NCBI GenBank assembly: GCA_002027195.1
Contig: MWJO01000001.1
Coordinates: 124,001 to 188,000, forward strand
Length of the DNA stretch: 64,000 nucleotides
Source of the DNA: Streptomyces sp. GKU 895
GTDB lineage: Bacteria > Actinomycetota > Actinomycetes > Streptomycetales > Streptomycetaceae
Direction: 5' to 3'
The translations under genes and the position numbers were made by a program. The notes under the pieces are model-generated. The model was not told where the DNA came from and made no database searches. It saw only the letters and a list, made by a program, of their open reading frames with translations. Positions 30,763 through 62,191 of the stretch are shown piece after piece; the first letter of the stretch is position 1; each line of letters begins with the position of its first letter.

Positions 30763-30790
30763 TGACCGGACAGGAACATATTGTGTGACA
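30763..30790 (-). promoter_or_regulatory. ECF41-type promoter before sigma gene 29771-30637
   Basis: Minus strand: TGTCACA, 15 bases, CGGTCA. Exact match, about 125 bases before the start codon. Confidence 0.75.
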
Positions 30791-30847
30791 CGGTTTCCCG
30801 GGCAGTAACCTGCGGCCCGCGTGCCGCAGTCAGCTTCGCGGCGGTCG

Positions 30848-32080
30848 TCAGGGCAGAAGACTGGCCAAAGGGGTCTGCGGATCGGACAGGGCCACGTCCG
30901 CCACGGAGACGCCGGACTCGACGAGGGCGCGGACGGAGTCGATGACGTTCCACACGTTCACACTCATGCCCGCCAGGACCCGGTCCCCGGACAACCAGAA
31001 GGCGACGAACCGCCGCTCGGCCAGGTTCCCGCGGAAGACGACGCGGTCGTAGCCGCCGGGCTCGGTGTATCCCGTGTACTCCATCCCGAGGTCGTACTGG
31101 TCGGTGTAGAAGTACGGCAGCCGGTTGTAAGCCGCCTCGCTGCCGAGCATGGCCTGCGCCGCCGTGCGGGGCTGGTGCAGGGCGTTGGCCCAGTGCTCCA
31201 CACGCAGATGCCGGCCGAGCCGAGGATGGTAGGCGTTGGCCACGTCCCCTGCGGCGTGCACGTCCGGGGCCGAGGTGCGCAGACGCTCGTCGGTGACGAT
31301 GCCGTTGCGCACCTCCAGTCCGGCTGCCTCTGCGAGCCGGACGTTGGGGGTGATCCCGATGCCCACCACCACAGCGTCGGCGGGCAGCCGGGTTCCGTCG
31401 GCGAGTTGGACGCCGTCGGCGCGGGTGCCGTCACCGGTGATGCGCTCGACGGCGGCGTGGGGCCGCAGGACGACCCCATGGTCCCGGTGCAGGGCGGCGA
31501 AGACCTCGGCCGCCTCCCGGCCGAGCACCTTCAGCAACGGCAGCTCGGAGTGCTCCAGGACGGTCACCAACGCCCCGGCCGTCCGGGCTGCCGCAGCGGT
31601 CTCCAGACCGATCCAGCCGCCCCCGACGACCACGATCCGGGCGCCGGGAGTAAAAGCGGCCTTGAGCCGCTCGCTGTCCCCAACGCGGCGCAGATACAGC
31701 ACGTTGTCCAGGTCCGCGCCAGGAACAGTCAGTCGGCGGGGGGACGATCCGGTCGCCAGGAGCAGCTTGGTGTAGGACATCCGGCGCCCGCCGGTGATCT
31801 CGACCTGGCGGGCGTGTGCGTCGACGGCCGTGACGCGCGTTCCGGTCATGAGGTCGACGTCGTGTTCGCGGTACCAGTTCTCGGAATGCACGAAGATGGA
31901 CTCGCGGTCCTCCTTGCCGAGCAGGTACCCCTTGGACAGCGGCGGTCGGATGTAGGGGCGCTCCGCCTCGTCACCGACGACGACGAGCGGGCCGTCGTAG
32001 CCCTGTTGCCGGAGTTCCTCGGCGGCCTTGCCTGCGGCGAGGCCGCCGCCGACGATCACGAACCCGTTTTCTCGCGACAT
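30848..32080 (-). CDS. Ferredoxin reductase-type FAD/NAD oxidoreductase
   Basis: A 410-residue enzyme of the rubredoxin/ferredoxin reductase family. FAD motif IVGGGLAAGKAAEEL near the start, YIRPPLSK typical of the family, the NAD motif VVVGGGWIGLETAAAA near residue 150, and the FAD-closing VHAAGDVANAY near residue 280. It would move electrons from NAD(P)H to a ferredoxin for an oxygenase or other redox partner. A 7Fe-type ferredoxin with the same promoter motif lies at 60595. ATG 32080 has a modest GGGA site; exact promoter motif at 32131-32158. Confidence 0.9.
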   Translation of the reverse strand: MSRENGFVIVGGGLAAGKAAEELRQQGYDGPLVVVGDEAERPYIRPPLSKGYLLGKEDRESIFVHSENWYREHDVDLMTGTRVTAVDAHARQVEITGGRRMSYTKLLLATGSSPRRLTVPGADLDNVLYLRRVGDSERLKAAFTPGARIVVVGGGWIGLETAAAARTAGALVTVLEHSELPLLKVLGREAAEVFAALHRDHGVVLRPHAAVERITGDGTRADGVQLADGTRLPADAVVVGIGITPNVRLAEAAGLEVRNGIVTDERLRTSAPDVHAAGDVANAYHPRLGRHLRVEHWANALHQPRTAAQAMLGSEAAYNRLPYFYTDQYDLGMEYTGYTEPGGYDRVVFRGNLAERRFVAFWLSGDRVLAGMSVNVWNVIDSVRALVESGVSVADVALSDPQTPLASLLP

Positions 32081-32130
32081 GATGTTCCCGTCTCTGCGCG
32101 CACCGGACACTGGTGTGCCCTGGTGCGGAG

Positions 32131-32158
32131 AGACCGTGACAACCCGCAGGTTGTGACA
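32131..32158 (-). promoter_or_regulatory. ECF41-type promoter before the ferredoxin reductase gene
   Basis: Minus strand: TGTCACA, 15 bases, CGGTCT. Exact match, about 50 bases before the start codon. Confidence 0.8.
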
Positions 32159-32286
32159 CCGGCCCGCCCCGTGGAGGGAACGTGCGGGGCTGCGAAGGCA
32201 GGGCGGGGAGTGCGACGAGGGCGCGAAGGGCGTCCGTGGCCGAGGCGGCCCGCAGATCCGCGCCTCTCGTCGCTTGGCCGTGCGGG

Positions 32287-33615: not shown

Positions 33616-33643
33616 TGTCACAGGCGCGGGTCCTCACCTGTCT
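33616..33643 (+). promoter_or_regulatory. ECF41-type promoter before the YceI gene
   Basis: TGTCACA, 15 bases, CTGTCT: one change in the -10 element. It lies 120 bases before the YceI start codon. Confidence 0.55.
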
Positions 33644-33762
33644 GTCCTTCTGCGGACCTCGCCCGGCCTTCCCCGGCCGTGGTCCGCTCCACCACCCGGC
33701 AGGCACACGGCGACGGCTCGCAGCGACTGATCGTCGTGACCAGCGACCGCAAGGATCCCCCT

Positions 33763-34335
33763 ATGTCGACCGTCGTCCCGTACGCAGCGCTGACCGGTGT
33801 CTACACCATCGACCCGGCGCGCAGCACCATCGGCTTCTCCGTCCGGCACGCCATGATCGCGAACGTGCACGGGCGGTTCGGCGTGTTCGAGGGGCTGGTC
33901 CAGCTGGACGGGTACCAACCCAGCCGCTCCGAGGCCTACTTGAGCGTCCAGACCGGCAGTATCGACACCAGCAGCCCTGACCGGGACACCCGTCTCGCGG
34001 GTGCTGACTTCCTCGACGCCGCCACCTATCCGCTGATGGTCTTCCGCTCCGCGGGCCTCGCCGATCGCGGAGACGGCCAGTTCCGTCTGACGGGACACCT
34101 CAGGATCAAAGACGTCGAACTCCCTCTCCACATCCACCTCGCCTTCGACGGGGCCACGCAGGACGAGAGCGGAGACCACCGAGTCGGCTTCTCCGGCACC
34201 GCCCTGGTGCGCCGCTCCGACTGGGGGCTCGGCTGGAACACGCCCGCCGAAACCGGCGGTGTCCTCATCAGCGACAAGGTCAGGCTCAGCTTCGACATCT
34301 CTGCTGTCCGTCTCTCCCGCGCGGATGCCGCATGA
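33763..34335 (+). CDS. YceI-family lipid-binding protein
   Basis: A 190-residue YceI lipocalin-like protein: YTIDPARSTIGFSVRHAMI at the start, GRFGVFEG, a TRLAGADFLDAATYPLMVF segment and GHLRIKDVELPL. The family binds amphiphilic molecules such as isoprenoid quinones. No signal peptide is present, unlike many proteobacterial members, so it is likely cytosolic. ATG 33763 follows AAGGAT. Quinone binding would suit the redox genes nearby that share the promoter motif. Confidence 0.85.
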   Translation: MSTVVPYAALTGVYTIDPARSTIGFSVRHAMIANVHGRFGVFEGLVQLDGYQPSRSEAYLSVQTGSIDTSSPDRDTRLAGADFLDAATYPLMVFRSAGLADRGDGQFRLTGHLRIKDVELPLHIHLAFDGATQDESGDHRVGFSGTALVRRSDWGLGWNTPAETGGVLISDKVRLSFDISAVRLSRADAA

Positions 34336-34455: not shown

Positions 34456-35517
34456 ATGAATCATCAAGACACCACCGGCCAGGCCCGGTTCCGCTCGATC
34501 ACGACGATCGAGGACCTGCGCGAGCACCTGCAGTGGGCCATCGAGCTGGAGCACGCCACGCTGCCGCCCTACCTCACAGCCCTCTATTCGCTCGACCCCG
34601 AACGGAACGCCCACGCCGTCGAAGTGGTCAGCAGCGTGTTCGTCGAGGAGATGATCCACCTCGCGCTGGTGGCGAACCTCCTGAACGCGGTCGGCGGGCA
34701 ACCTCGCGTCGACACCCCGCGGATACTGTCACCGCATCCGCGGCCCATGCCGCACGCGGACCCCTCCATGCAGCTGTCCCTGCTGCCGTTCGGAGAGGAG
34801 GCGGTCGCGATGTTCCTCCGCCTCGAACAGCCGGCCCACCCGGGCGACCCGGCGGAGGGCGACGCCTACATGACGATCGGTCAGTTCTACGACGCGGTCG
34901 AGAAGGGTCTGCGGCACCTGTGCGCCGAGCTCGGCGAGGAACAGGTCTTCACCGGTGATCCCGCTCGTCAGGTGGCCGCGGGACCCTTCGGGCACACCGG
35001 CGGGCGGCTGAGCCCGGTCACCGATCTCGCCTCGGCGCTCGCCGCCTTGGAGGAGATCGTGGAGCAGGGTGAGGGCGCGGCGCGTGTCGACGTGTGGGAC
35101 GGGGACATGGACATGTTCCACCCGCAGAGCAAGGCCGTCTCGCATTATTACCGCTTCCAGGAGCTCGCACAGGGCCGGCGCTACCAGCCGGGGGATACAC
35201 CAGAGACGGGGCCCACGGGGGAGACGCTCACCGTGGACCCCGCCGGGGTGCGCCCGATGCGGCCCAACCCGCGGCTGGAGGACCATCCGGAGGGCAGTGC
35301 GATCCGCACGGCGCAGGAGGCGTTCAACATCGCGTACGGCAAGCTGCTGCAGCTTCTGGAGCAGGCGTTCAACGGCAATCCCGCGATGCTCGGGGTGTCG
35401 GTGGGCACGATGTACGCGCTCAAGGGGCAGGCACAGAGCCTGATGGCGATGCCCGACGGCGAGGGCCTGACCGCGGGGCCGACCTTCGACTACGTCGCTC
35501 CCGAAGATCGCGGCTGA
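34456..35517 (+). CDS. Ferritin-like domain protein (VioB/RebD-type domain)
   Basis: A 353-residue protein. The first ~220 residues match the ferritin-like domain found in VioB and RebD (iminophenylpyruvate dimer synthase): LREHLQWAIELEHATLPPYL, then FVEEMIHLALVANLLNAVGG, with Glu/His residues placed for metal binding. The rest is a less conserved helical tail. VioB and RebD are about 1000 residues, so this is a free-standing form whose chemistry is unknown. ATG 34456 follows AGGTGAG. It lies 120 bases after YceI with no own motif seen, so it may share that transcript. Confidence 0.75.
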   Translation: MNHQDTTGQARFRSITTIEDLREHLQWAIELEHATLPPYLTALYSLDPERNAHAVEVVSSVFVEEMIHLALVANLLNAVGGQPRVDTPRILSPHPRPMPHADPSMQLSLLPFGEEAVAMFLRLEQPAHPGDPAEGDAYMTIGQFYDAVEKGLRHLCAELGEEQVFTGDPARQVAAGPFGHTGGRLSPVTDLASALAALEEIVEQGEGAARVDVWDGDMDMFHPQSKAVSHYYRFQELAQGRRYQPGDTPETGPTGETLTVDPAGVRPMRPNPRLEDHPEGSAIRTAQEAFNIAYGKLLQLLEQAFNGNPAMLGVSVGTMYALKGQAQSLMAMPDGEGLTAGPTFDYVAPEDRG

Positions 35518-35655: not shown

Positions 35656-36474
35656 TCACCCCGGCGACGTCGGCGGGTGGGAGACACTCACGGCGTGCGA
35701 TGCCCGTACGCGCGTGATGTGGGCGTGCGCGCGCTGTGCCATGAAGACTTGGGTCTGCGCCGGGATGTTGCGGTCCTGGGTGGCGACCACGGCCCAGGAG
35801 GGGATGTCCTTCCAGCCGGGCTCGGAGGCGTCGTCCGCCAGCGCGGCATTGGTGATCGGGCGCTGCGTGACGGCCATCAGGTCCGTGGTGTTGCGGGGGA
35901 CATCAGCGGCGAACTGCTGCTGGAATTTGCTCGGGTCGATCGTCAGGTCCGCGTCGTGGGAGCCGTCCGGCAGGGTGACGGGCACCGAGCGAAGAGCGTC
36001 ACCGAGGGTGCTGCCGGGGAACTTGCCCGCCAACTCGGCAGCGCTCTCTCCCTTTTCGGGGAGGAAGGCGGCGACGAACACCAGGGCCTTGACGTTGGCG
36101 GCGTCGTGGGCGGCGTCGCTGATCACCGAGCCGCCGTAGGAGTGTCCGGCCAGGACCACCGGGCCGTCGATGCCGGCCAGGACCTCCTTGAGGTAGGCGG
36201 CGTCGTTGTCCAGCCCACGCAGCGGGTTGGCCGCGGCGACGACGGGGTAGCCCTCGTGCCGCAGCTTCCTGATGACGCCGTTCCAGCTGGTGGAATCGGC
36301 GAACGCGCCGTGTACGAGCACGACCGTGGGCTTCTTCTCGCCGTCCGTCGCGGACGTGCTCCTGTCGGCGTGGGCGGGGACGACGGCCGTGGCGATGAGG
36401 GCGGTGGCGACGGAGGCGGTGGCCAGCAGGGAGAGGGGGGTGCGGACCCGCTGGTAGGTGGAACTGCGGTTCAT
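35656..36474 (-). CDS. Secreted alpha/beta hydrolase, frameshifted last residues
   Basis: A 272-residue hydrolase with a signal peptide (residues 1-~36, ending VPAHA). VVLVHGAFADSTSWNGVI gives the oxyanion site, AGHSYGGSVIS the nucleophile Ser, and the final ASHAVSVSHP the catalytic His. It is a secreted paralog of the cytosolic 52806-53525 enzyme. After SHP the frame ends in PTSPG; adding one C before it gives ADVAGVIEAAA, the family's usual ending, so a one-base deletion near 35690 is likely. ATG 36474 follows AAAGGG. An exact TGTCACA promoter motif stands upstream. Confidence 0.8.
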   Translation of the reverse strand: MNRSSTYQRVRTPLSLLATASVATALIATAVVPAHADRSTSATDGEKKPTVVLVHGAFADSTSWNGVIRKLRHEGYPVVAAANPLRGLDNDAAYLKEVLAGIDGPVVLAGHSYGGSVISDAAHDAANVKALVFVAAFLPEKGESAAELAGKFPGSTLGDALRSVPVTLPDGSHDADLTIDPSKFQQQFAADVPRNTTDLMAVTQRPITNAALADDASEPGWKDIPSWAVVATQDRNIPAQTQVFMAQRAHAHITRVRASHAVSVSHPPTSPG

Positions 36475-36513: not shown

Positions 36514-36541
36514 GGACCGTGCGTGTGTCGCGAGTGTGACA
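36514..36541 (-). promoter_or_regulatory. ECF41-type promoter before the secreted hydrolase
   Basis: Minus strand: TGTCACA, 15 bases, CGGTCC. Exact match, 40 bases before the start codon. Confidence 0.8.
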
Positions 36542-38295: not shown

Positions 38296-38323
38296 GGACC
38301 GAGAAAGTGGTGAAAATGTGACA
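38296..38323 (-). promoter_or_regulatory. ECF41-type promoter before the orphan qcrB
   Basis: Minus strand: TGTCACA, 15 bases, CGGTCC. Exact match. Confidence 0.8.
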
Positions 38324-38360: not shown

Positions 38361-38627
38361 TCAAGACGCTCTCGCGCCGACCCCCTCGACGTTCTTGCGC
38401 GCCGAGCGCCGTCGTGTCGCGCGGCGCTCGCTCTCCGTCGTGCCACCCCAGATGCCCTCGACCTGCCCGACGTCCAGCGCCCACTGCAGACAGCGCTCCC
38501 GCACGGGGCACCGGGCGCACACGGCCTTCGCCTCGTCGATCTGGACCAGCGTCAGACCCGCGGTGCCGATGGGGAAGAACAGATCGGGGTCGACATCCCG
38601 GCAAGCCGCTCTCTCGCGCCAACTCAT
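38361..38627 (-). CDS. WhiB-like Fe-S regulatory protein
   Basis: An 88-residue Wbl protein with the four cluster cysteines C9, C37, C40 and C46 (CxxC plus flanking) and the turn GIWGGTTESER followed by a basic tail (RRATRRR). Wbl proteins hold a [4Fe-4S] cluster, sense O2, NO or redox state and bind the main sigma factor. ATG 38627 follows AAGGAGG. An exact TGTCACA promoter motif lies 42 bases upstream, placing a redox-sensing regulator in the proposed regulon. Confidence 0.9.
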   Translation of the reverse strand: MSWRERAACRDVDPDLFFPIGTAGLTLVQIDEAKAVCARCPVRERCLQWALDVGQVEGIWGGTTESERRATRRRSARKNVEGVGARAS

Positions 38628-38668: not shown

Positions 38669-38696
38669 TGACCGTCCGGAGGGAGGCCCTGTGACA
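38669..38696 (-). promoter_or_regulatory. ECF41-type promoter before the WhiB-like gene
   Basis: Minus strand: TGTCACA, 15 bases, CGGTCA. Exact match. Confidence 0.8.
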
Positions 38697-45592: not shown

Positions 45593-48279
45593 TCAGGTGT
45601 CCAGGCCGTAGTGCTTGCGGGCGCGGTCGACGGTGTCGAGGTCCACTTGTCCGGCCCGAGCCAGCCGGTCCAGGGCCGTCACGGTGATCGATTCGGCGTC
45701 CACGCGGAAGTAGCGCCGTACGTCCTCGCGGGTGTCGGACAGGCCGAATCCGTCCGTGCCCAGTGAGTAGTAGTCCTGCTCGATCCACTGGCCGATCTGG
45801 TCGGGGACCTGGCGCATCCAGTCGCTGACGGCCAGGACCGGACCCGGCGCACCTGTGAGCGACTCGGTCACGAAGGGCACGCGGGTCTCACCGCGCGTGC
45901 GGGCGGTGTCAGCGTCCATCGCGTTCCGGCGCAGCTCCGTCCAGGACGTCACCGACCAGACATCGGCGCGCACGTTCCAGTCGGCGGCGAGCAGTTCCTG
46001 CGCGCGCAGTGCCCAGTGGACGGCGGTGCCGGAGGCCAGGAGCTGCACCCGAGGGCCGGACACGGCGCGGTCGCCGGGCCGGAACGGGTACATGCCGCGG
46101 ACGATGCCCTCCTCGATGCCGGGCCACGCAGGAATGGGCGGCTGCGGCTTCGGCTCGTTGTAGACCGTGAGGTAGTAGAAGACGTTATCGGGCCGCTCCC
46201 CGAACATCCGGCGCAGGCCGTCGCGGACGATGACCGCGATCTCGAAGGCGAAGGCCGGGTCGTAGCTGACGGCCGCCGGGTTGGTGGCGGCCAGGAGGTG
46301 CGAGTGGCCGTCGCCGTGTTGGAGACCTTCGCCGGTCATGGTGGTGCGTCCGGCGGTGCCGCCGACGACGAATCCGCGGCCCATCTGGTCGGCGAGGGCC
46401 CAGAACTGGTCGCCGGTGCGCTGGAAGCCGAACATCGCGTAGAAGATGTAGAACGGGATCATCGGCTCGCCGTGGGTGGCGTACGAGGTCGCGGCGGCGG
46501 TGAATTCAGCCATGGAACCGGCTTCGGTGATGCCCTCGATGAGGAGCTGCCCGGTCTCGCTCTCCCTGTAGTGCAGCAGCTGGTCGGCGTCGACGGGGTC
46601 GTAGGTCTGGCCCTGCGGCGAGTAGATGCCGGCCGTGGGGAACATCGACTCCATGCCGAAGGTACGGGCCTCGTCGGGGATGATCGGCACCCAGCGGGCG
46701 CCGGTACGGCCGTCCCGCATCAGGTCCTTCACCAGGCGGACCAACGCCATGGTGGTGGCGACCTCCTGATGGCCGAAGCCCTTGAGGAGCGCCTCGAACG
46801 GCTGCGCGGCGGGCTCCGGCAGCGGCTTGGGGATCACGCGGCGCGCGGGGACGGGGCCGCCCAGTGCGGCGCGCCGCTCGTGCAGGTACCGCACCTCGGG
46901 CGAGTTCTCCCCGGGGTGCCAGAAGGGAACGACGTCACCGGCGAGGGCGCTGTCGGGGATGGGCAGGTCCAGCACTTCGCGCAGCTCGCGGAACTGCGCC
47001 ATGGTCAGTTTCTTCATCTGGTGGTTGGCGTTTCGGGATTCGAACGCGACCCGAGGGTGTGCCCCTTGACCGTCTGGGCGAGGATCACCGACGGTGCTCC
47101 CCGGTGTTCGACGGCGGCCCGGTAGGCGGCGTACACCTTCAACGGCTCATGCCCACCGCGGGAGTTCTCGAAGAGTTCCACCACCTGGGCGTCGCTCAGG
47201 GTGGCGGAGAGGGTGGACAGGGCGTCCCCGACGAAGAAGTTCTTGCGGATGTAGGCGGCGTCCCGCGCGGCGAAGGTCTGCATCTGGGCGTCGGGCTCCT
47301 CGCTGAGGCGGCGTACCAGGTCACCGGTCGTGTCCTGGGCCAGCAGCGGGTCCCAGGCCTCGCCCCACAGGGTCTTGACGACGTTCCAGCCCGCCCCGCG
47401 GAACCGGGTCTCCAGCTCCTGCACGATCTTGGAGTTGGATCGCACAGGTCCGTCGAGGCGCTGCAGGTTGCAGTTGATCACGAAGGTGAGGTTGTCCAGA
47501 CCCTCACGGGAGGCCAGCGTCAGGGCTGCCGTGGCTTCGGGCTCGTCCGTCTCCCCGTCGCCGAGGAACGCCCACACTCGGGAGGCGGAGGTGTCCTTGA
47601 TGCCGCGGGCCTGCAGATAGCGGTTGAAGCGTGCCTGGTAGACCGCGCCAAGAGGGCCGAGGCCCATGGACACGGTCGGGAACTCCCACAGCCACGGCAG
47701 CCGCCTGGGGTGCGGATAGGACGGGAGGCCGTGACCGCCGGCCTCGCGCCGGAAGCCGTCCAACTGCTGCTCGCTCAGGCGGCCTTCGAGGAACGCCCGG
47801 GCATAGATGCCCGGTGAGGCGTGCCCTTGGAGGAACAACTGGTCGCCCGAGCCGTCCTGTTCCTTGCCACGGAAAAAGTGGTTGAAGCCGATCTCGTACA
47901 GCCAGGCCGCCGACGCGTAGGTGGAGATGTGTCCGCCCAGGCCGAGCCGGGAGCCGCGGGTCACCATGGCCGCGGCGTTCCACCGGTTCAGGGCGGTGAT
48001 CCTGGTTTCCATGGCGATGTCGCCGTCGAACATCGGCTGGGCGGCGGCCGGGATGGTGTTGACGTAGTCCGTGGTGAGCAGCCCCGGCACCCGCAGGCCG
48101 GCGCGGGCCGCGTACTCGTGCACGCGCCGGATCAGGTACACCGCCCGATCAGGTCCGGCGTTGCGTATGACGGCGTCGAGGGAGGCCTGCCACTCCGCGG
48201 TCTCCTCGCGGTCGCGGTCGGGAAGCTGGTCGAGCTCACTGCTCGGCGGGGACGCGGTGGGCCGGGACGAGTCACTCAT
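45593..48279 (-). pseudogene. aceE: Pyruvate dehydrogenase E1 (homodimeric AceE), one-base frameshift
   Basis: About 895 residues in two frames. The N-terminal part carries [16 protein letters not shown], the ThDP-Mg motif GDGETDEPE and, about 27 residues later, NCN; the C-terminal part starts [14 protein letters not shown] and holds EGITEAGSMAEF and GDGHSHLLAATNP. At about 47056 one G is missing (HTLGS then RSNPE); restoring it yields [16 protein letters not shown], the normal family sequence. The enzyme decarboxylates pyruvate for acetyl-CoA. ATG 48279 leads the E1-E2 pair; the next promoter motif upstream is at 48787-48814, in front of an epimerase relic. Confidence 0.8.
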
Positions 48280-48439
48280 GGGCGGCTTTCCTCAAGACGT
48301 AGGGCGGGGGAGACGGGCGAGGGTGCGGTGAGGGGTGCTGTGGGGCGTCGGTCGGTGCGGCGTAGGTGGATCAGCGGACTTCGAGGCATGGGCCAACGTG
48401 TGACGGCCGAGGTGGGAGTCCGGTCCGGGCAGCACCACG

Positions 48440-48690
48440 GGAGGGCGACGTCGCCGGCCGCGGCCGGCCGCAGCACCAGCGAGGCCACGTGCAGCCCGTC
48501 CTCGTGCACGCCCGCGCGGCGGCGCTCACCACAAACTCGAAGAACGGCGTGGTGCCCACCAGGGAGTACGGCAGTCCGGAACGGCGGACGAAGTCCTGCT
48601 GAGGGGCAGCAGCCGTGCCCCGTGGTTCCGCCGACGGGTAACCGCCCTCGAGCCGATCCGCTCCGTGGCGGCTGCAACGACGACTTTCAT
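48440..48690 (-). pseudogene. NmrA-type SDR/epimerase relic
   Basis: ATG 48690 follows AAAGGAG and begins MKVVVAATERIGSRAV, like the MKIVVIGGTGLIGSK start of the intact gene at 58560. About 100 residues are then missing; in a second frame comes DFVRRSGLPYSLVGTTPFFE, matching LIKASGIPWSIVHATQFFE of that gene, and in a third frame EDGLHVASLVLRPAAAGDVA. An internal deletion plus two shifts make it dead. It lies between an exact TGTCACA promoter and the PDH genes. Confidence 0.6.
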
Positions 48691-48786: not shown

Positions 48787-48814
48787 AGACCGGACGAAAG
48801 GTGTTGTTGTGACA
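48787..48814 (-). promoter_or_regulatory. ECF41-type promoter before the epimerase relic and PDH genes
   Basis: Minus strand: TGTCACA, 15 bases, CGGTCT. Exact match, about 95 bases before the relic's start and 510 before aceE. With the epimerase broken, the PDH genes are the remaining intact-looking targets. Confidence 0.75.
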
Positions 48815-49463: not shown

Positions 49464-49491
49464 TGACCGGTGGGCAGGACCCGATGTGACG
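49464..49491 (-). promoter_or_regulatory. ECF41-type promoter before cupin gene 48916-49410
   Basis: Minus strand: CGTCACA, 15 bases, CGGTCA. One change in the -35 element. Confidence 0.65.
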
Positions 49492-50723: not shown

Positions 50724-50751
50724 AGACCGGCCTCCGCCATGTGCTGTGACA
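50724..50751 (-). promoter_or_regulatory. ECF41-type promoter before hydrolase 49531-50478
   Basis: Minus strand: TGTCACA, 15 bases, CGGTCT. Exact match; long 5' leader to the gene. Confidence 0.65.
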
Positions 50752-51731: not shown

Positions 51732-51759
51732 TGTCACACATCTGCTCCGGGCCCGGTCC
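51732..51759 (+). promoter_or_regulatory. ECF41-type promoter before hydrolase pair 51805-53525
   Basis: TGTCACA, 15 bases, CGGTCC. Exact match, 45 bases before the first start codon. Confidence 0.8.
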
Positions 51760-52755: not shown

Positions 52756-52805
52756 CACCACTCACCCGATCACCTTCCCCCGGAACGTTGAAAGGCCTCA
52801 TCTCC

Positions 52806-53613: not shown

Positions 53614-54018
53614 TCACGGCAGCGGCGCGGGCTCCGCGAGCAGCGTGGGCACTGTGATGATCGTGACGTCCTTGGTCAGCAGCCGATGGACAGGACAGCG
53701 TCCCGCGACTGCCAGGAGCTGATCCTGCTGCGCGGGAGTCAACTCCCCAACGAGGCCGATGTTCTTGACCACCTGCCCTTGTGCGCCGAAGCGGACCGCG
53801 ATGTCCACCCGCTCCAGCGGCCATTCGTGACGCTGCGCGTAGGCTCGCACGGCCATGGACGTGCACGCTCCGAGTGCGGCCAGGAGGAGTTCACCCGGGG
53901 TGGGGCCGGTGTCGGTGCCGACGGGCTCCGGCTCGTCGGCTGTCAGGCGGTGTGTACCGATCGCCACGGAGCGCGCGAGCTGTTTTCCTTCGGCCACGGT
54001 AACGATGCGCGTGTTCAT
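53614..54018 (-). CDS. OsmC/Ohr-family peroxidase-like protein
   Basis: A 134-residue OsmC-family protein with both redox cysteines: C52 in LGACTSMAV and C108 in AGRCPVHRLL. The family reduces organic hydroperoxides through a Cys pair, recharged by lipoylated protein in known Ohr systems. ATG 54018 has AGAGG upstream; a near-exact TGTCACA motif precedes it. Lipoyl recharging gives a possible link to the E2 gene of the same proposed regulon, which is inference only. Confidence 0.85.
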   Translation of the reverse strand: MNTRIVTVAEGKQLARSVAIGTHRLTADEPEPVGTDTGPTPGELLLAALGACTSMAVRAYAQRHEWPLERVDIAVRFGAQGQVVKNIGLVGELTPAQQDQLLAVAGRCPVHRLLTKDVTIITVPTLLAEPAPLP

Positions 54019-54073: not shown

Positions 54074-54101
54074 AGACCGTGCGGGGCGCCCGACTGTGAC
54101 G
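54074..54101 (-). promoter_or_regulatory. ECF41-type promoter before the OsmC gene
   Basis: Minus strand: CGTCACA, 15 bases, CGGTCT. One change in the -35 element. Confidence 0.65.
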
Positions 54102-55777: not shown

Positions 55778-55805
55778 TGTCTCGATCAAGCCGGCTGACC
55801 GGTCG
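55778..55805 (+). promoter_or_regulatory. ECF41-like promoter before sigma-like gene 55890
   Basis: TGTCTCG, 15 bases, CGGTCG. Two changes in -35, exact -10 and spacing; 84 bases before the start codon. Confidence 0.45.
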
Positions 55806-55889: not shown

Positions 55890-56612
55890 ATGGATCATGT
55901 CGTTGGCGTGGTGCCGCTCGCCGAATCGGTCGACGAACGGCGGCACTTGCTGGACATCGCCTGCCGGGCGCTCGGCAGCCGCGTCGCGGCCGAGCACGTC
56001 GTCGACGAGGCTTACCGACGGTGGTACCGCCTCACCGATTCGGAGCGCATCCGGATGCCGTCCCCCCGCGTCTGGCTCGCCCAGGTCGTGGACGAGGCGT
56101 GTCTGACGCGGCAGACGTCGGCCTGGCCCGGTGGAAGGGAGCGGGAGATCCTGGCCCTGCGGGCGTTGTGCGGTGAGGACGCGGAACTGGTCGAGCGGGC
56201 CCGGTCGAGTGTGGGTGCGCGGCGTGCGCGGCCCGTGCCGGCGCGTCGTGAGCATGAGATCTCCGTTGCCGTACGGCAGGCGTGCAGTGATCAGGACAGC
56301 TCCCGGCTGCGGTCGCTGCTGGCTCCCGATGCGGCGGCCTTCTTCGACAGCGGCGGCAAGATCCGGGCGCTGACCCGCCCGGTCCACGGCGACGAGCAGG
56401 TCGCCGACAGCCTGTTGGTCCTGCTGACCGGGCAGCGTCGCGTGACCCTGTTCACCGGATCGGTCAACGGGCGCACCGGCCTCGTCGCGCGGTGCGACGA
56501 CAAGGTCGCCGCAGTGCTGGCCCTCGACATCGCGGACTCGCTGGTCCTTGAGGTCTGGGCGGTGCTCAACCCCGACAAGCTGCGTAGCTGGAATCGTTCC
56601 CTTCCCGGGTGA
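55890..56612 (+). CDS. SigJ-like protein lacking most of sigma region 4
   Basis: A 240-residue protein aligned along its length with the sigma factor at 29771-30637. It keeps a sigma-2-like start (VDERRHLLDIACRALG, VVDEAYRRWYRL) and the entire SnoaL-like end (AFFDSGGKIRAL, SVNGRTGLVARC, AVLNPDKLRSWNR). About 50 residues covering the linker and the LSPAERAAFVLNDAFG part of sigma-4 are gone, with the frame kept. It therefore should not bind a -35 element normally. It may be a decayed sigma or a trans-acting regulator of its sisters. ATG 55890 has GGGGGT upstream. Its last 47 bases overlap the convergent sigma gene. Confidence 0.7.
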   Translation: MDHVVGVVPLAESVDERRHLLDIACRALGSRVAAEHVVDEAYRRWYRLTDSERIRMPSPRVWLAQVVDEACLTRQTSAWPGGREREILALRALCGEDAELVERARSSVGARRARPVPARREHEISVAVRQACSDQDSSRLRSLLAPDAAAFFDSGGKIRALTRPVHGDEQVADSLLVLLTGQRRVTLFTGSVNGRTGLVARCDDKVAAVLALDIADSLVLEVWAVLNPDKLRSWNRSLPG

Positions 56613-57570
56613 GCTCACGTGCCACGGCGTTCTCGAAACGTGCCGGCAGGAGCGTGCGGCGGGTGCGGTGTCCGACAAGGGTGGCGATCTTGTCGGGGGC
56701 GAACACCCACAGAACCCGGTGGATGCCCCGCCGAGTGGCGGCGATGGTCATGAAGGTGGTGGGCCGGCCGTCCCGGTGCAGCAGGACCCCGGCGCGCCCG
56801 TTGGCCTGCACGGGTGCGATCTCCACCGTCGGCCAGAAGCGCGACGAGGCGGTCGAGAGGTTCGCCACCCGGGCACGCCCGACCACGGGAACGCGAGCCG
56901 CGCCGCGCAGTCCGTTGCCGTCGGACAGACTCACCGCCTCGGGCGTCAGGAGCGCTTCCAGCGAGGCCACGTCACCTTCCTGGGCGGCCGCGACGAAAGC
57001 ATCGAGCAGCCTGCGGTGCTCCCGGACGTCGACACTGTCCCTCTCATCGTCGGTGAGGTGCTTGCGCGCCCGGCTCACGATCTTCCTGGCGTTGACCGGG
57101 GTGAGGCGCAGGATCGCCGCGATCTCCGCGTAGCCGTACTCGAAGGCCTCCCTCAGCACGTAGGCGGCCCGTTCGATGGGGGCGAGCTTCTGCAGGACGA
57201 GGAGCAGGGCGAGTTCGAGGGCCTCGGCGCGTTCAGCGCCGGCCACAGGGTCGATGCTGGTGTCGATGGGTTCGGGCAGCCAGGGACCGATGTAGGTCTC
57301 GCGGCGGACGCGGGCGGACTGCGCCACGTTGATGGCCAGCCTCGTCGTCGTGCTCGACAAGAACGCCGCGGGGCTGACCACCGCGGAGCGGTCGGTACGC
57401 TGCCAGCGCAGCCAAGCCTCCTGCACGACGTCCTCGGCTTCCGTCGCACTGCCCAGGACGCGGTAGGCGATACCGAAGAGCCGAGGCCGCAGTTCCACGA
57501 AGGTGGTGACGGCCTCGGCGAGATTCCGGTCCGCGGCGGACGCCTGGGCTGGGGATGCCTCTGGATACAT
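56566..57570 (-). CDS. ECF41-type sigma factor, full-length
   Basis: A 334-residue ECF41 sigma. Sigma-2 is IAYRVLGSATEAEDVVQEAW, the linker signature GPWLPEPIDTS, and sigma-4 LAPIERAAYVLREAFEYGYA followed by ILRLTPVNARKIVSRARKHL. The SnoaL-like domain follows with SLSDGNGLRGA in place of DGGGK and FAPDKIATL in place of NPDKL, plus an unusual ~30-residue tail. ATG 57570 follows GGAG nine bases away. An exact TGTCACA-N15-CGGTCG promoter at 57656-57683 suggests autoregulation. Confidence 0.88.
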   Translation of the reverse strand: MYPEASPAQASAADRNLAEAVTTFVELRPRLFGIAYRVLGSATEAEDVVQEAWLRWQRTDRSAVVSPAAFLSSTTTRLAINVAQSARVRRETYIGPWLPEPIDTSIDPVAGAERAEALELALLLVLQKLAPIERAAYVLREAFEYGYAEIAAILRLTPVNARKIVSRARKHLTDDERDSVDVREHRRLLDAFVAAAQEGDVASLEALLTPEAVSLSDGNGLRGAARVPVVGRARVANLSTASSRFWPTVEIAPVQANGRAGVLLHRDGRPTTFMTIAATRRGIHRVLWVFAPDKIATLVGHRTRRTLLPARFENAVARELTREGNDSSYAACRG

Positions 57571-57655: not shown

Positions 57656-57683
57656 CGACCGAGGACCCAGGGAGGCTGTGACA
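57656..57683 (-). promoter_or_regulatory. ECF41-type promoter before sigma gene 56566-57570
   Basis: Minus strand: TGTCACA, 15 bases, CGGTCG. Exact match, 86 bases before the start codon. Confidence 0.8.
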
Positions 57684-57813: not shown

Positions 57814-58560
57814 TTACTGCTGCTGGGCGAGCCAGTCGGCGAAGCGGGTCTCGCCAATGCGGGCGTCCGGGCCGGGAAGCAGCGTGGTCTCCTGCAGCTC
57901 GGCGCCGAAGTACGGGGCGTGCACGTCGGCAACGACCGTGCGCGGGTCGTTCTTGGCGGCCAGGCCCTTGCGGATCAGCTCGTCCAGCTGGAAGGTGTCG
58001 GGACCGGCCACCTCGACCACACCGTTGACCGGCGTGCCCACTGCGGTGCGGCCCACGGTGGCGGCGACGTCGTCCGAATAGACGGGCTGGATCTTCACCG
58101 GGGCCAGTCTGACGGTGTCACCCTCGGTCGCCGACTCGGCGATGCCCTTCATGAACTCGAAGAACTGCGTGGCGTGCACGATCGACCACGGGATCCCGGA
58201 TGCCTTGATCAGTTCCTCCTGGGCCTGCTTGGCACGGAAGTAGCCACTGTCCTGGAGCCGTTCCGTACCTACCACCGACAGGGCGACGTGGTGGGTGACA
58301 CCGGCGTTCGCCTCCGCCTTGAGCAGGTTGGTGGTGGAGGTGCGGAAGAACTCCATGACGGCGTCGTCCGCGAAGGAGGGCGAGTTGGAGACGTCGATCA
58401 CGACGGCCGCGCCCTCCAGCACCTCGGCCAGGCCCTCGCCGGTCAGCGTGTTGACGCCGGTGTTCGGGGCGGCCGCGACCGCTTCGTGGCCGTGTTCGTT
58501 GAGCTTGCCGACGACTTTCGAGCCGATCAGTCCGGTGCCGCCGATCACTACGATCTTCAT
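57814..58560 (-). CDS. NmrA-like NAD(P)-binding SDR/epimerase
   Basis: A 248-residue atypical SDR. MKIVVIGGTGLIGSKVV carries the GGTGxIG dinucleotide motif; DVSNSPSFADDAVMEFF, HHVALSVVGTERL and FRAKQAQEELIKASGIPWSI match the NmrA/epimerase group. These bind NADP(H) and act as reductases or redox sensors. It is the E of the ECF41-linked COE set (CMD, oxidoreductase, epimerase). ATG 58560 follows GAAAGGAA. An exact TGTCACA promoter lies 46 bases upstream. A broken paralog lies at 48440-48690. Confidence 0.88.
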   Translation of the reverse strand: MKIVVIGGTGLIGSKVVGKLNEHGHEAVAAAPNTGVNTLTGEGLAEVLEGAAVVIDVSNSPSFADDAVMEFFRTSTTNLLKAEANAGVTHHVALSVVGTERLQDSGYFRAKQAQEELIKASGIPWSIVHATQFFEFMKGIAESATEGDTVRLAPVKIQPVYSDDVAATVGRTAVGTPVNGVVEVAGPDTFQLDELIRKGLAAKNDPRTVVADVHAPYFGAELQETTLLPGPDARIGETRFADWLAQQQ

Positions 58561-58605: not shown

Positions 58606-58633
58606 TGACCGGGAATTGATCGGCGCTGTGACA
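58606..58633 (-). promoter_or_regulatory. ECF41-type promoter before the NmrA gene
   Basis: Minus strand: TGTCACA, 15 bases, CGGTCA. Exact match. Confidence 0.85.
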
Positions 58634-58675: not shown

Positions 58676-60406
58676 CTATTCGACGAGCTTTCCGTCCGCC
58701 GAGACCTCTTCCATCAGGGCGGCGATCTCGTCGGGGACGGGGCTGATGGGTTCGCGGGTGACGCCGTCGGTCGGGGACCAGACGAGGTTCACCCGCAGCG
58801 CGGGATCCATGGCGGGGTAGTCGCTGCGGTTGTGGCATCCGCGCGTCTCGCGCCGCTCCAGGGCGGCTTCCAGCGTGGCCCTCGCCGCCAGTGCGGACGA
58901 CTTGAGGTCGAAGGCGTGGGCGAGGTCCTGGAAGCCCGCGATGTCCGGATGGACGCCGACGTTCTCCATGCGCTTCTCGATGGCGTCCAGCTCCGCCAGC
59001 CCGGTGCGCAGCCCGTCCTCGTCACGGACCACGCCCGCGTGCTCGGTCATGGTGTTGCGGATTGCGCGCTGCAGGGCGCGGACGTTCTCGGGTCCGTCCG
59101 CGGCGAGCAGGTCGTCGACCTCCGCCCGCGCCTGGGCCACCGCGGTGGCCGAGCGCGGCTGCGCGGTCAGTGCCGCGGAGTAGGCGGCGGCCGCCTGTCC
59201 GGTGATGCGGCCGTACACCAGCAGCTCGATGAGGCTGTTGCCGCCGAGCCGGTTGGCGCCGTGCAGTCCGCTGGAGGCTTCACCGATGGCGTACAGGCCC
59301 CGCACGTCTGTGCTGTGGTCCTCGGGGCGGACCCACACACCGCCCATGGAGTAGTGCGCGGTGGGCGCGACTTCGATGGGATCCCGGGTGATGTCCAGCA
59401 TCTGCAGGTCCAGCAGCGTCTGGTAGACGCGGGGGAGCCGGTTCATGATGGTCTGCCGGGGCAGGTGGGAGACGTCGAGCCACACTCCGCCGTTGGGTGT
59501 GCCACGGCCTTCCTTGATCTCGGTGTAGGAGGCGAGGGCGACCCGGTCGCGGGTGGACAGTTCCATGCGGACGGGGTCGTAGCGGTTCATGTACCGCTCG
59601 CCGAGCGCGTTGCGCAGGATGCCGCCTTCGCCGCGGGCTGCCTCGCTGACCAGGGTCCCGGCCGCGTTCTCCGGCTCGATGATGCCGGAGGGGTGGAACT
59701 GGACGAGTTCCGGGTCGCGCAGCCGGGCGCCGGCCTCCACGGCCAGCCGGAAGGAGTCGCCGGTGTTCTCGTCGCGCCGTGACGAGGTGCGCCGCCAGAT
59801 CCGGGTGTGGCCGCCGGCCGCGAGGATGACGGCGTCCGCGTGCACCAAGTAGCGCTTGCCGTCGCCGAGGCCGAAGCCGTAGGCGCCGAAGACGGCACCC
59901 TCGTGGACCAGGAGACGGGTGATGTAGACGCTGTCGAGCACCGGTATGTCCAGCTGGTTCGCGCGCCGGATGAGCGTGCGCTGGATCTCCAAGCCCGTGT
60001 AATCGCCCGCGAAGGCGGTGCGGCGGAACTTGTGGGCGCCGAAGAAGCGCTGGGAGATCCGGCCGTCCTCCTCCCGGGCGAAGGCCATTCCGTAGCGCTC
60101 CAGGTCGTCGATGCCTAGCGCGGCTCCCCGGGTGACGATCTCCGCGGTGCGGGGGTCGCCGAGGAGGTAGCTCTCCTTGAGGGTGTCGGCGGCGTGCTGC
60201 TGCCAGGTGTCCTCAGGGTCCATCGTGGCGAGGGCTGCATTGATCCCGCCGGCGGCGAGAGAGGTGTGGGTGTCCTCCTTGGGGCGCTTGCCGACGGCGA
60301 GGACATCGATGCCGGCCTCGGCCAGCTCGATGGCCGCGCGCAGGCCCGCTCCGCCGGTGCCGATCACCAGCACTGTGGTGGAAAGACGTTGTTCGGTGGC
60401 AACCAC
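58676..60406 (-). CDS. Fumarate reductase/succinate dehydrogenase-type flavoprotein
   Basis: A 576-residue flavoprotein. VIGTGGAGLRAAIELAEAG binds FAD, SLAAGGINAAL matches the succinate oxidase group, QFHPSGI and RDRVALA the substrate site, HYSMGGVWV the conserved HxxGG, and LYAIGEASSGLHGANRLGG the family signature. An Fe-S subunit and membrane anchor are missing nearby; the divergent ferredoxin could supply electrons. L-aspartate oxidase is an alternative, but the C-terminal HNRSDYPAMDP end favours the Sdh/Frd group. GTG 60406 follows GGGAG; ATG 60418 is possible. One-mismatch promoter motif at 60441-60468. Confidence 0.85.
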   Translation of the reverse strand: MVATEQRLSTTVLVIGTGGAGLRAAIELAEAGIDVLAVGKRPKEDTHTSLAAGGINAALATMDPEDTWQQHAADTLKESYLLGDPRTAEIVTRGAALGIDDLERYGMAFAREEDGRISQRFFGAHKFRRTAFAGDYTGLEIQRTLIRRANQLDIPVLDSVYITRLLVHEGAVFGAYGFGLGDGKRYLVHADAVILAAGGHTRIWRRTSSRRDENTGDSFRLAVEAGARLRDPELVQFHPSGIIEPENAAGTLVSEAARGEGGILRNALGERYMNRYDPVRMELSTRDRVALASYTEIKEGRGTPNGGVWLDVSHLPRQTIMNRLPRVYQTLLDLQMLDITRDPIEVAPTAHYSMGGVWVRPEDHSTDVRGLYAIGEASSGLHGANRLGGNSLIELLVYGRITGQAAAAYSAALTAQPRSATAVAQARAEVDDLLAADGPENVRALQRAIRNTMTEHAGVVRDEDGLRTGLAELDAIEKRMENVGVHPDIAGFQDLAHAFDLKSSALAARATLEAALERRETRGCHNRSDYPAMDPALRVNLVWSPTDGVTREPISPVPDEIAALMEEVSADGKLVE

Positions 60407-60440: not shown

Positions 60441-60468
60441 CGACCAGGTGGAGTGATGGTTTGTGACA
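60441..60468 (-). promoter_or_regulatory. ECF41-type promoter before the flavoprotein gene
   Basis: Minus strand: TGTCACA, 15 bases, TGGTCG. One change in the -10 element. Confidence 0.7.
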
Positions 60469-60522: not shown

Positions 60523-60594
60523 TACCGCACACCGGTCGGCGTACGAAGGCCGTGCGGTCCGCAACGACCGGCCGACGTGAGGGAGGTGGGGACG

Positions 60595-60978
60595 GTGACC
60601 TACGTGATCGCGGAGCCGTGCGTCGACGTCAAGGACCGGGCATGTGTGGTCGAGTGCCCGGTCGATTGCATCTACGAGGGCGAGCGGACGCTGTACATCA
60701 ATCCCTGGGAGTGCGTCGACTGCCACGCCTGCGAGCCGGTCTGCCCGGTCGAGGCCGTCTTCCACGAGGACGACCTGCCGGCACGGTGGGCGCGGTACCG
60801 GTCGGTGAACGCCGAGTACTTCCGCGACCCGCCGGGGGAGGGCGCCGGGCGGGTCGCACGGGCCGATCACCCCGCAGTCGCCGCCCTGCCCCCGCAGCAC
60901 GCCGTCAAGAACGGCCTGTCCGGGTTCGCCGCCCGCAAGGAGGAGTCCGCCGACGCCGACCTGTGGTTCCCGTCATGA
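60595..60978 (+). CDS. Ferredoxin, 7Fe (3Fe-4S/4Fe-4S) type
   Basis: A 127-residue ferredoxin. Cysteines C9, C17 and C21 (with C25 nearby) fit the 3Fe-4S site, and C40, C43, C46 and C50 (CxxCxxCxxxCP) the 4Fe-4S site, as in actinobacterial FdxA. A ~75-residue C-terminal extension follows, longer than the usual FdxA tail. GTG 60595 follows GGGAGG. It is divergent from the fumarate reductase-like gene with a paired promoter region, so the two are probably induced together. It may be reduced by the reductase at 30848-32080. Confidence 0.9.
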   Translation: MTYVIAEPCVDVKDRACVVECPVDCIYEGERTLYINPWECVDCHACEPVCPVEAVFHEDDLPARWARYRSVNAEYFRDPPGEGAGRVARADHPAVAALPPQHAVKNGLSGFAARKEESADADLWFPS

Positions 60979-61009
60979 ATGACCCGCACCGGCCCGGGCC
61001 ATTCATGAC
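60972..61009. terminator. Inverted repeat over the ferredoxin stop codon
   Basis: GTCATGAATG (60972-60981) pairs perfectly with 61000-61009; GC-rich 18-base loop. It lies between convergent ferredoxin and sigma genes. Confidence 0.6.
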
Positions 61010-61047
61010 ATGGGCCGGCACCCACGGACGGCGTGCGCGGATGCGGG

Positions 61048-61944
61048 TCAGGCCCCCAGGGAAAGGACGTAGGGGTTCAGCTTGACCGGGTTCATCACCC
61101 ACATGATGCGCTCGATGCCGGCCTCGGACGCGTCCACGCACAACAGGGCCAGCGGGGCGTTGTCGCGTGTGACGAGCACGGCCGGCCTGCCGTTGGCCTC
61201 GACGAACCGGGTCTCGGTGTCCGGCCAGAACCGTGGGGCGAAGGCGGCCAGGTAACGGGAGACGTGATCGCGGCCCATGACGGGGATCCTGGACGCGCCG
61301 CGGATGCCGCCGCCGTCCGAGTAACTGACGACGTCCGAGGTCAGCAGATCCTCCAGGGTGGAGAGATCTCCCGTGCGCGCGGCGGAGAGGAAGCCTTCGA
61401 GCAGGCGCCGGTGGGCCGCGGGGCTGACGCGCTCCTTGCGTTCGGCACCCAGGTGCTTGCGCGCCCGGCTGACCAGCTGCCGGGCGTTCGCGTCGCTGGT
61501 CTCCAGGATGTCGGCGACCCGCTGGTAGGGGTAGTCGAACGCCTCCCGCAGCACGTAGGCGGCGCGTTCGGTCGGGTTGAGCTTCTCCATCAGCAACAGC
61601 ACCGCCAGCTCGACCGCCTCGGCGCGTTCCGCCCCCAGGTGCGGGTCTTGGGCGGTGTCGACAGGCTCGGGGAGCCACGGCCCGACGTAGGACTCCCGGC
61701 GTACCCGCGCGGACTGGGCCAGGTTGATCGCGAGCCGGGTGGTGACCGTGGTCAGGAAGGCGGCCGGTTCCTGGATCTGGGCGCGGTCGGTGTTCTGCCA
61801 GCGCAGCCAGGTGTCCTGGACGATGTCCTCGGCTTCGACGGCACTGCCGAGGATGCGGTACGCGATGCCGAACAACCGGGGTCTGGCCGAGAGGAAGTCG
61901 TCGAGACCGTGATCGAACGGGTCGGGTTGGGCGCCGGCGCGCAT
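61048..61944 (-). CDS. ECF41-type sigma factor with intact DGGG and NPxKL motifs
   Basis: A 298-residue ECF41 sigma. Sigma-2 IAYRILGSAVEAEDIVQDTW, linker GPWLPEPVDTA, sigma-4 LNPTERAAYVLREAFDYPYQ then ILETSDANARQLVSRARKHL, and a SnoaL-like domain with SYSDGGGIRGASRIP and NPVKLNPY. Of the five sigma genes in this region it is closest to textbook ECF41, so it is the best candidate to read the TGTCACA motifs. ATG 61944 follows AGAAGGG. No such motif was seen upstream of its own gene. Confidence 0.9.
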   Translation of the reverse strand: MRAGAQPDPFDHGLDDFLSARPRLFGIAYRILGSAVEAEDIVQDTWLRWQNTDRAQIQEPAAFLTTVTTRLAINLAQSARVRRESYVGPWLPEPVDTAQDPHLGAERAEAVELAVLLLMEKLNPTERAAYVLREAFDYPYQRVADILETSDANARQLVSRARKHLGAERKERVSPAAHRRLLEGFLSAARTGDLSTLEDLLTSDVVSYSDGGGIRGASRIPVMGRDHVSRYLAAFAPRFWPDTETRFVEANGRPAVLVTRDNAPLALLCVDASEAGIERIMWVMNPVKLNPYVLSLGA

Positions 61945-62163
61945 GGGTCGTCCCTTCTGGCTTTGCGCCCTACATGCTACGCGCGAGGGGTAACGCTACG
62001 CGCTGCGGGCCGCATCCGCTCACGTTATCTCTTTCGCGATCCCCGGTCACACGGTGGTAATCGCCCCGCCTGATTCGCCGGGTTTGCTTTGCGGTTCCGC
62101 TGCCCGCCCCATACTCCGTGGGACTGCGGTCGACGAGTGAAAAGGCTGTGCGGAGAGGACGGT

Positions 62164-62191
62164 TGTCACACATGCGCCGGGTCCCCGGTCA
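62164..62191 (+). promoter_or_regulatory. ECF41-type promoter before cupin gene 62234
   Basis: TGTCACA, 15 bases, CGGTCA. Exact match, 42 bases before the start codon. Confidence 0.85.

Follow-up and report, generated by a model that had tools for sequence, protein, structure and literature searches.

ECF41 is a large and widespread group of extracytoplasmic function (ECF) sigma factors. The described members (Ecf41Bli, Ecf41Rsp, RpoE9 of Sinorhizobium meliloti, and SigJ of Mycobacterium tuberculosis) have sigma2 and sigma4 regions followed by a C-terminal extension, a WLPEP linker, TGTCACA as the -35 element, and partner genes for carboxymuconolactone decarboxylase (CMD) or for NmrA-type or short-chain dehydrogenase/reductase (SDR) proteins. 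The passages of PMC3426412 that deal with these proteins treat WLPEP in the sigma2-sigma4 linker as an ECF41 feature, give the promoter as TGTCACA, 16 ± 1 bp, CGTC (with starts mapped by 5' rapid amplification of cDNA ends in two species), and conclude that an ECF41 protein generally has one gene or operon as its target. Similarly, RpoE9 is described in part of PMC6180224 as having one target, and in part of PMC3616915 its motif lies 9 nucleotides upstream of the transcription start. No multi-target clustered ECF41 regulon came up in our searches of open-licence PubMed Central papers. Here we describe a block of genes in Streptomyces sp. GKU 895 that resembles these systems in its sigma-factor regions and C-terminal extension, WLPEP linker, -35 element, and partner genes, but with about 26 supported sites instead of a single target and with GGTC instead of CGTC at -10. 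We analyzed 64,000 nucleotides, hereafter the window (assembly GCA_002027195.1, contig MWJO01000001.1, positions 124,001-188,000), and the rest of that genome. Very probably, the 17 exact copies of TGTCACA-N15-CGGTC in the genome are promoters of a clustered ECF41/SigJ regulon that would be read by sigma factors encoded in the block, above all by the product of the gene at 61048-61944. As for the parts of this claim, we have high confidence that the sites are genuine promoters belonging to one regulon and good confidence that sigma factors of one ECF41 clade read them; both judgements come from comparing sequences.

The assembly has 8,296,413 bases in 190 contigs and is 84.8% complete. Coordinates are those of the window unless stated otherwise, the contig with the window is called C1, and gene calls are codon-model predictions made for this analysis, not an annotation. 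The window contains 12 exact matches to the motif, all between 30764 and 62190 (starting at 30764, 32132, 36515, 38297, 38670, 48788, 50725, 51732, 57657, 58607, 60495, and 62164). A first-pass annotation of the window had placed these 12 copies correctly, except that its minus-strand coordinates were one base low. If up to two changes are allowed, there are 22 matches in the window, compared to 8.8 expected (100 shuffles, with a maximum of 17). The spacer length is fixed, as the first-pass annotation had also claimed: among spacers of 8 to 25 bases, only 15 yields exact matches. In the whole genome, all 17 exact matches lie inside 54 kb (C1:154764-208779, or window coordinates 30764-84779), with 12 of them in the window and five just past its end. 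There were none in the remainder of the 84.8%-complete assembly, and the reversed pattern, which served as a control, had no exact match in the whole genome. Under uniform placement, the probability that 16 further matches would share the 54 kb of the first is about 10^-35, which is a rough figure as the length of the stretch was derived from the data. Furthermore, none of the 17 exact sites lies within a predicted gene, though about 80% of the stretch is predicted to be coding. Sixteen of them are upstream of a predicted start on the same strand (at 35-256 bp, median 63), and the remaining site, at 48788, faces the pieces of a frame-broken NmrA-type gene. The sites do face "a gene or relic", as had been proposed, and the motif is not equally common across the genome or inside genes, which had been named as the outcome that would count against a regulon.

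The earlier estimate of 17 copies (12 exact and five inexact) over 31 kb was right about the clustering but too small. The same region (C1:150244-211501) has another 11 matches with one change, compared to 19 elsewhere in the genome, and the block extends about 22 kb beyond the window. In total, about 26 sites are supported across about 61 kb: the 17 exact sites and nine one-change variants (26244, 33616, 49465, 54075, 60442, 66163, 69561, 74207, and 87475, the last of which rests on one relative). Four of these variants were among the five inexact sites proposed earlier; the fifth, at 55778, has two changes, and we rejected it, as it is conserved in none of four relatives with orthologous stretches. 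We also count three sites as unsupported: none of the four relatives gives a usable alignment at 77440, 86255 is present in one relative but with a 13-base spacer, and 86198 (two changes) was outside the conservation comparison. The exact site at 84753 has no ortholog in the four relatives. Between 25881 and 87323, 24 of 49 predicted transcription units start with a listed site (up to 520 bp away on the minus strand or 300 bp on the plus strand), and this falls to 21 of 49 without the three unsupported sites. Sites 36515 and 82247 sit inside units as joined for this count.

Among the products of genes with supported sites are a ferredoxin reductase, a ferredoxin, an FrdA-like flavoprotein, a QcrB-type cytochrome b, a pair of pyruvate-dehydrogenase-type E1 proteins, OsmC, NmrA-type reductases, CMD (behind an NmrA gene), cupins, alpha/beta hydrolases, YceI, WhiB, a SpoIIE phosphatase, and a pair of proteins of which one is weakly ligase-like and the other is aldehyde-dehydrogenase-like. 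The usual partners of ECF41 (COE: carboxymuconolactone decarboxylase, oxidoreductase, or epimerase) are represented by the NmrA gene at 57814-58560 and, past the window, by an NmrA gene with two sites that is followed by the CMD gene (window coordinates 72819-74117). Because back-up electron-transfer and central enzymes stand with families for the detoxification of peroxides and electrophiles, the predicted targets suggest, with moderate strength, a redox or electrophile stress response.

Such clusters recur in other genomes. In a set of 61 genomes (GKU 895, 36 more of its genus, and more distant bacteria), 30 have an exact match, and 6 of the 37 members of the genus, including GKU 895, have at least three exact matches within 60 kb of one contig. 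We also picked 10 genomes, not at random but for a relative of the sigma gene at 61048-61944. All 10 contain a cluster of the motif, and the reversed control gave 0 in all 10. In Streptomyces canus V4I20, a stretch of 46.5 kb that holds 15 of 15 exact sites is located about 106 kb from the end of its 10.48-Mb contig, and in S. sp. P3, 13 of 14 lie in 50 kb. Exact sites are also clustered in NBRC 110468 (16 of 18), WC-3605 (13 of 14), S. pseudovenezuelae (7 of 7), A. cocklensis (9 of 9), and S. scabichelini (7 of 7), and the clusters are split over two contigs in S. humi (10 and 3), LUP47B (10 and 7), and S. adustus (4 and 4). Because the sequences of the relatives are partly near-copies, these counts are not independent events. 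The islands also come in intermediate sizes, with 1-3 sites in Amycolatopsis or Microbacterium, where they stand next to sigma and NmrA genes, 4-9 sites in Actinacidiphila and two genomes of the same order, and 13-17 in the largest Streptomyces clusters. Small groups of sites are found in other settings as well: the linear 1.5-Mb megaplasmid of S. sp. NBC_00841 (NZ_CP108854.1) has four exact and two CTGTC sites in 4.7 kb (L180 20847-25580), and contig C2 of genome G019 carries three sites (L048).

From other genomes, we chose 35 sequences among loci with sites (some genomes contribute more than one). These hold 142 sites, of which 110 are exact, and for 95 of the 110 there is a called gene start on the same strand within 350 bp. 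By best match to the proteins of the GKU 895 block, the first genes after all 142 sites are NmrA-type (31), FrdA-like flavoprotein (17), cupin (9), CMD (8), clade sigma (6), disulphide-oxidoreductase-like (5), cytochrome b (5), divergent sigma (5), ferritin-like (4), OsmC (3), ferredoxin reductase (3), and WhiB (2), with 11 having no match. Gene order differs between islands while these families recur, which suggests that individual genes carry the promoter along with them or retain it.

The recurrence of families in shuffled order bears on whether the block might instead be a single catabolic or natural-product cluster, with the sigma factor as its pathway-specific switch. Cluster-situated ECF sigma factors of antibiotic clusters include sigmaMibX and sigmaPspX. 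For antimycin, the relevant part of PMC3933326 describes sigmaAntA as controlling two promoters close to its own gene and as having no predicted targets elsewhere in the genome. In GKU 895, the adjacent ligase-like and aldehyde-dehydrogenase/LuxC-like genes, a methyltransferase, hydrolases, and an MFS gene would fit a pathway. We nevertheless consider a pathway cluster to be unlikely: the block genes that we scanned include no PKS, NRPS, or lanthipeptide family, the islands differ in which genes they contain and how these are ordered but share recurring redox families, and stress-type families (OsmC, WhiB, and CMD) are among the targets. Like the block, sigmaAntA is an ECF sigma factor with promoters near its own gene, but it has two targets in a biosynthetic cluster, whereas the block consists of many short redox-enzyme units without a recognised biosynthetic core, and its sigma factors belong to a different ECF family.

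Returning to an ECF41 regulon, six genes in the block or at its edge are of the ECF41/SigJ type. The protein encoded at 61048-61944 matches sigma-70 regions 2 and 4 (Pfam PF04542 and PF08281) above the cut-offs, and it matches TIGR02957 (355 bits, cut-off 323) and the SigJ model NF007214 (285 bits, cut-off 271) over nearly its full length. It also aligns to residues 10-241 of the SigJ structure 5xe7 (E = 3e-45). These full-length SigJ models cover the conserved C-terminal SnoaL-type extension of about 100 amino acids. (SigG1-RsfG of Streptomyces tsukubaensis also involves a Streptomyces ECF sigma factor with a SnoaL_2 extension, but it belongs to a different group, ECF56; the opening of the abstract of PMC7730460, which describes it, says nothing of clustered promoters.) The protein encoded at 56566-57570 is just under the cut-offs of TIGR02957 and NF007214. 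The linker reads WLPEP in 61048-61944, 56566-57570, and 24364-25320, and WLPES in 40220-40951. The sigma gene at 24364-25320 was rejected as a member of the block: it is probably outside, because it has only paralogous matches (38-43%) in the relatives' blocks. We also dismissed relic status for 29771-30637, 40220-40951, and 55908-56612, as all three are conserved over their full or nearly full length in three relatives, where their ratios of nonsynonymous to synonymous substitution (dN/dS) are 0.15-0.45.

The motif is linked to one clade of these sigma factors. Within the 61 genomes, the 16 with a sigma factor that is at least about 52% identical to 61048-61944 (GKU 895 included) have a mean of 5.4 exact sites, and the other 45 have a mean of 0.5. 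In 13 of the 16, there is an exact site within 5 kb of the sigma gene (the exceptions are G001, G032, and G051). Of 92 sigma proteins placed on a tree, 61 form a clade (support 100/99) that holds the proteins from 61048-61944, 56566-57570, and 40220-40951. We found TGTCACN-N16-GGTC within 3 kb at 46 of 58 clade loci, compared to 1 of 29 other ECF41 loci. (Sites at the clade loci were read by hand, CTGTC sites were not counted, and the partial locus L111 and four weak matches from the own genome were excluded. The 29 other loci are the 18 top full-length matches from outside the clade, two paralogues from the own genome, and nine others.) On the tree, the label changes 12 times, compared to 29 times in shuffles.

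The first-pass annotation had described ECF41 promoters as TGTCACA near -35 and CGTC near -10. The -35 element holds, with agreement at 7 of 7 bases in the 17 genome sites, and the register is the same (TGTCACA-N16-GGTC in the block and TGTCACA-N16-CGTC in the published promoter), but the -10 element does not: all 19 block matches of TGTCACA-N16-SGTC are GGTC, which counts against a standard ECF41 promoter. Three further one-change sites in the block carry CTGTC and fall outside this pattern. The CGTC version occurs at three places in the genome, all outside the block. Because the block sites have GGTC while the sites within 3 kb of the sigma gene at more distant proteobacterial loci (L108, L109, and L112) have CGTC, the clade appears to have switched its -10 preference from CGTC to GGTC. 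Among the residue columns that separate clade from non-clade sigma factors, we found no obvious change at a residue that contacts the -10 element. Near three other Streptomyces ECF41 genes (L147, L148, and L149), there are TGTCACAT-type sites that end in CGGTT, which might be a third class of -10 element.

Instead of being read by a sigma factor, the motif could be the binding site of a repressor or activator from the block itself, which does contain TetR, MarR, LuxR, and WhiB genes (TetR, MarR, or WhiB being the candidates). This is very improbable: the motif is not palindromic, it has a fixed -35/-10 geometry, its first half is the ECF41 -35 consensus, and it tracks membership in the sigma clade. 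Moreover, the GTC-type -10 variants CTGTC and TGGTC are also conserved.

Conservation within the sites supports the regulon further. We aligned 28 sites from GKU 895 (the 17 exact and 11 inexact sites, including 55778 and 77440; 26244 was aligned separately) with orthologous stretches of S. canus V4I20, S. sp. P3, S. sp. NBRC 110468, and S. sp. NRRL WC-3605. After dropping sites without an alignment or with flank identity below 0.5, 24, 18, 26, and 20 of the 28 remained, respectively. In the same order, identity was 0.958, 0.907, 0.981, and 0.975 at the 12 motif positions and 0.814, 0.567, 0.818, and 0.800 at the 15 spacer positions. The difference is significant in each relative (Fisher P from 6e-9 to 7e-18, with positions that are not fully independent) and points to purifying selection on both the -35 and -10 elements. 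Some variants are conserved as variants in all four relatives, namely CTGTC at 33616 and 69561 and CGTCACA at 49465. An origin of the copies from a mobile or repeated element, for which one might cite the number of copies of one bipartite motif, the piece of a DDE transposase near the contig end that bounds the block, and the small cluster on a linear megaplasmid, is scarcely credible, because only the 12 motif bases are invariant and the flanks and spacers of the copies are unrelated, while all 17 exact copies are intergenic and orthologous sites keep exactly those 12 bases as the rest drifts.

The sites and genes in the window are as follows, with conservation given for the four relatives.

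26244..26270, minus strand: variant site GGTCACA-N15-CGGTC, 10 bp before the ABM-domain gene 25881-26234; GTCACA and CGGTC kept in three relatives
29771..30637, minus strand: gene for a divergent ECF41-like sigma factor of 288 amino acids, with sigma2, sigma4, and the motifs DGGG and NPDKL; dN/dS 0.28-0.35
30764..30790, minus strand: exact site before the divergent sigma gene 29771-30637; kept in all four
32132..32158, minus strand: exact site before the ferredoxin-reductase-type gene 30848-32080; kept in two, no usable alignment in two
33616..33642, plus strand: variant site (CTGTC) before the YceI gene 33679-34335, then the ferritin-like (VioB-type) gene 34456-35517; kept in all four
36515..36541, minus strand: exact site before the alpha/beta-hydrolase gene 35656-36474; kept in two, no usable alignment in two
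38297..38323, minus strand: exact site before the QcrB-type cytochrome b gene 36544-38106; kept in three, no usable alignment in one
38670..38696, minus strand: exact site before the WhiB gene 38361-38627; kept in three, one change in P3
40220..40951, minus strand: second clade sigma gene, 243 amino acids, without the distal SnoaL-type regulatory domain; no upstream site found; dN/dS 0.15-0.34
45593..48279, minus strand: two pyruvate-dehydrogenase-type E1 genes, likely served by site 48788 across the gene relic
48391..48690, minus strand: pieces of a frame-broken NmrA-type reductase gene, under site 48788
48788..48814, minus strand: exact site before the NmrA relic and the E1 genes; kept in all four
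49465..49491, minus strand: variant site (CGTCACA) before the cupin gene 48916-49410; kept in all four
50725..50751, minus strand: exact site before the alpha/beta-hydrolase gene 49531-50478; kept in all four
51732..51758, plus strand: exact site before two alpha/beta-hydrolase genes, 51805-53525; kept in two, TGGTC in the other two
54075..54101, minus strand: variant site (CGTCACA) before the OsmC gene 53614-54018; GTCACA and CGGTC kept in all four
55908..56612, plus strand: ECF41-like gene without sigma4, 234 amino acids, conserved in three relatives; the two-change site upstream (55778) is not conserved
56566..57570, minus strand: clade ECF41 sigma gene, 334 amino acids, WLPEP linker
57657..57683, minus strand: exact site before the sigma gene 56566-57570 (likely autoregulation); kept in all four
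58607..58633, minus strand: exact site before the NmrA-type reductase gene 57814-58560; kept in three, TGGTC in one
60442..60468, minus strand: variant site (TGGTC) before the FrdA-like flavoprotein gene 58676-60406; TGGTC or CGGTC in all four, TGTCACG in P3
60495..60521, plus strand: exact site before the 4Fe-4S ferredoxin gene 60595-60978; kept in NBRC 110468, one change in S. canus
61048..61944, minus strand: clade ECF41/SigJ sigma gene, 298 amino acids, the proposed main driver; no site of its own
62164..62190, plus strand: exact site before the cupin gene 62234-62695 and the DUF5134 gene 62713-63336; kept in all four

Some of these arrangements are repeated in the other islands. In L046, a variant site lies at the same distance of 10 bp before a homologue of the ABM gene. 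L045 has a site 105 bp before homologues of the E1 pair, and in L079 an open NmrA-type gene (222 amino acids) lies between a variant site and an E1-type gene. In GKU 895, the NmrA-type gene at 48391-48690 has decayed, while the motif upstream of it is still conserved in four relatives and apparently now serves the E1 genes. An open reading frame at 48276-48677 was considered as the gene under site 48788, but it is not conserved and matched no family, and the NmrA relic replaces it.

Several observations weigh against a clustered regulon driven by 61048-61944. The proposed driver has no site of its own, and its extension is recognised only by the full-length SigJ models, with no separate Pfam SnoaL hit. 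Because there are six ECF41-like genes in or beside the block, the sequences allow several candidate drivers, and the actual driver may be any of these. Over half of the block's predicted units carry no site, the assembly is 84.8% complete, and the block stops at the contig end. Site 60495 was not found in P3 or WC-3605 and is kept in just one of the four relatives. In the other islands, 15 of the 110 exact sites have no called start within 350 bp, and five lie inside a predicted gene. Exact matches, one to four each, are also present in 15 of the 45 genomes without a clade sigma factor. Finally, at 12 of the 58 clade loci there is no GGTC-type site up to 3 kb away, though some of these loci have CTGTC or TTGTC. 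We still favor the ECF41 regulon that the first-pass annotation had proposed, as genes of this family lie in the block, the sites track one ECF41 clade, and both promoter elements are under purifying selection.

In such a regulon, the clade sigma factors would bind TGTCACA at -35 and C-GGTC at -10, with transcription starting a few bases downstream. Some two fifths of the block's predicted units own a copy, so that one sigma factor would fire some two dozen genes or short operons together, including two genes of the sigma family. The C-terminal SnoaL-type domain would restrain the sigma factor until a signal arrives, as reported for Ecf41Bli, and the response would then be amplified through autoregulation at 57657. 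The probable starting point of the block is the usual module of a sigma gene and one partner, which would have grown by local capture of genes with this promoter.

The second clade sigma factor (40220-40951) might be part of this amplification. It stops early, as it matches TIGR02957 only up to position 195 of 281, and we found no remnant of the distal domain downstream of the gene. Similarly short clade sigma factors are present in the islands of G020, G019, and LUP47B (L039 9261-9881, L048 6987-7562, and L079 14600-15244). S. pseudovenezuelae and A. cocklensis yield partial matches that are shorter, and G034 has one whose tail is unrelated, which may reflect a frameshift. A tree on the shared part of five short sigma factors places them on at least three branches (some supports are moderate), so such shortening seems to have arisen repeatedly. 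In the truncation experiments described in PMC3426412, Ecf41Bli cut to 204 residues was about 20-fold more active and Ecf41Rsp cut to 206 residues was about 120-fold more active, while removal of the whole extension abolished activity. The natural shortening lies near these activating truncations (its position is approximate), and the functional effect might be similar. We only tentatively suggest, as a possibility that is somewhat doubtful, a new architecture in which a regulon is inherited as a block of many promoters around a GGTC-shifted ECF41, with the second sigma factor, lacking its distal domain, as an unlocked amplifier.

Compared to published ECF41 systems, what sets this genome apart is some two dozen conserved candidate targets in one block, where ECF41 factors are described as generally having one each; the 17 exact and nine supported variant sites do not fit a single target gene or operon, as judged from the sites themselves. 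The genomes with islands of intermediate size form a natural series for studying how a regulon grows and why its genes stay linked although they are not an operon. Targets can be predicted directly from so exact a motif, which also lends itself to reporter tests, and the recurrence of the same target families hints that this group of sigma factors has a shared physiological role. (For another ECF41 factor, from Azospirillum, motility is named in a title in the reference list of PMC8999054.)

A few of the genes in or near the block have other noteworthy features. Under an exact site lie adjacent genes that resemble an aldehyde dehydrogenase (LuxC model) and an AMP ligase, both below the cut-offs (L179:510-1904 and L018:904-2004); this pair is reminiscent of a fatty-acid reductase pair. 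The QcrB-type cytochrome b has four copies in the genome, and those at C104:61596, C122:50239, and C158:103957 are 54-64% identical to 36544-38106. The block also encodes a ketol-acid reductoisomerase (L018:2885-3889), which lies 118 bp behind the gene served by site 66163 and is 92% identical to a second copy at C156:9052-10041.

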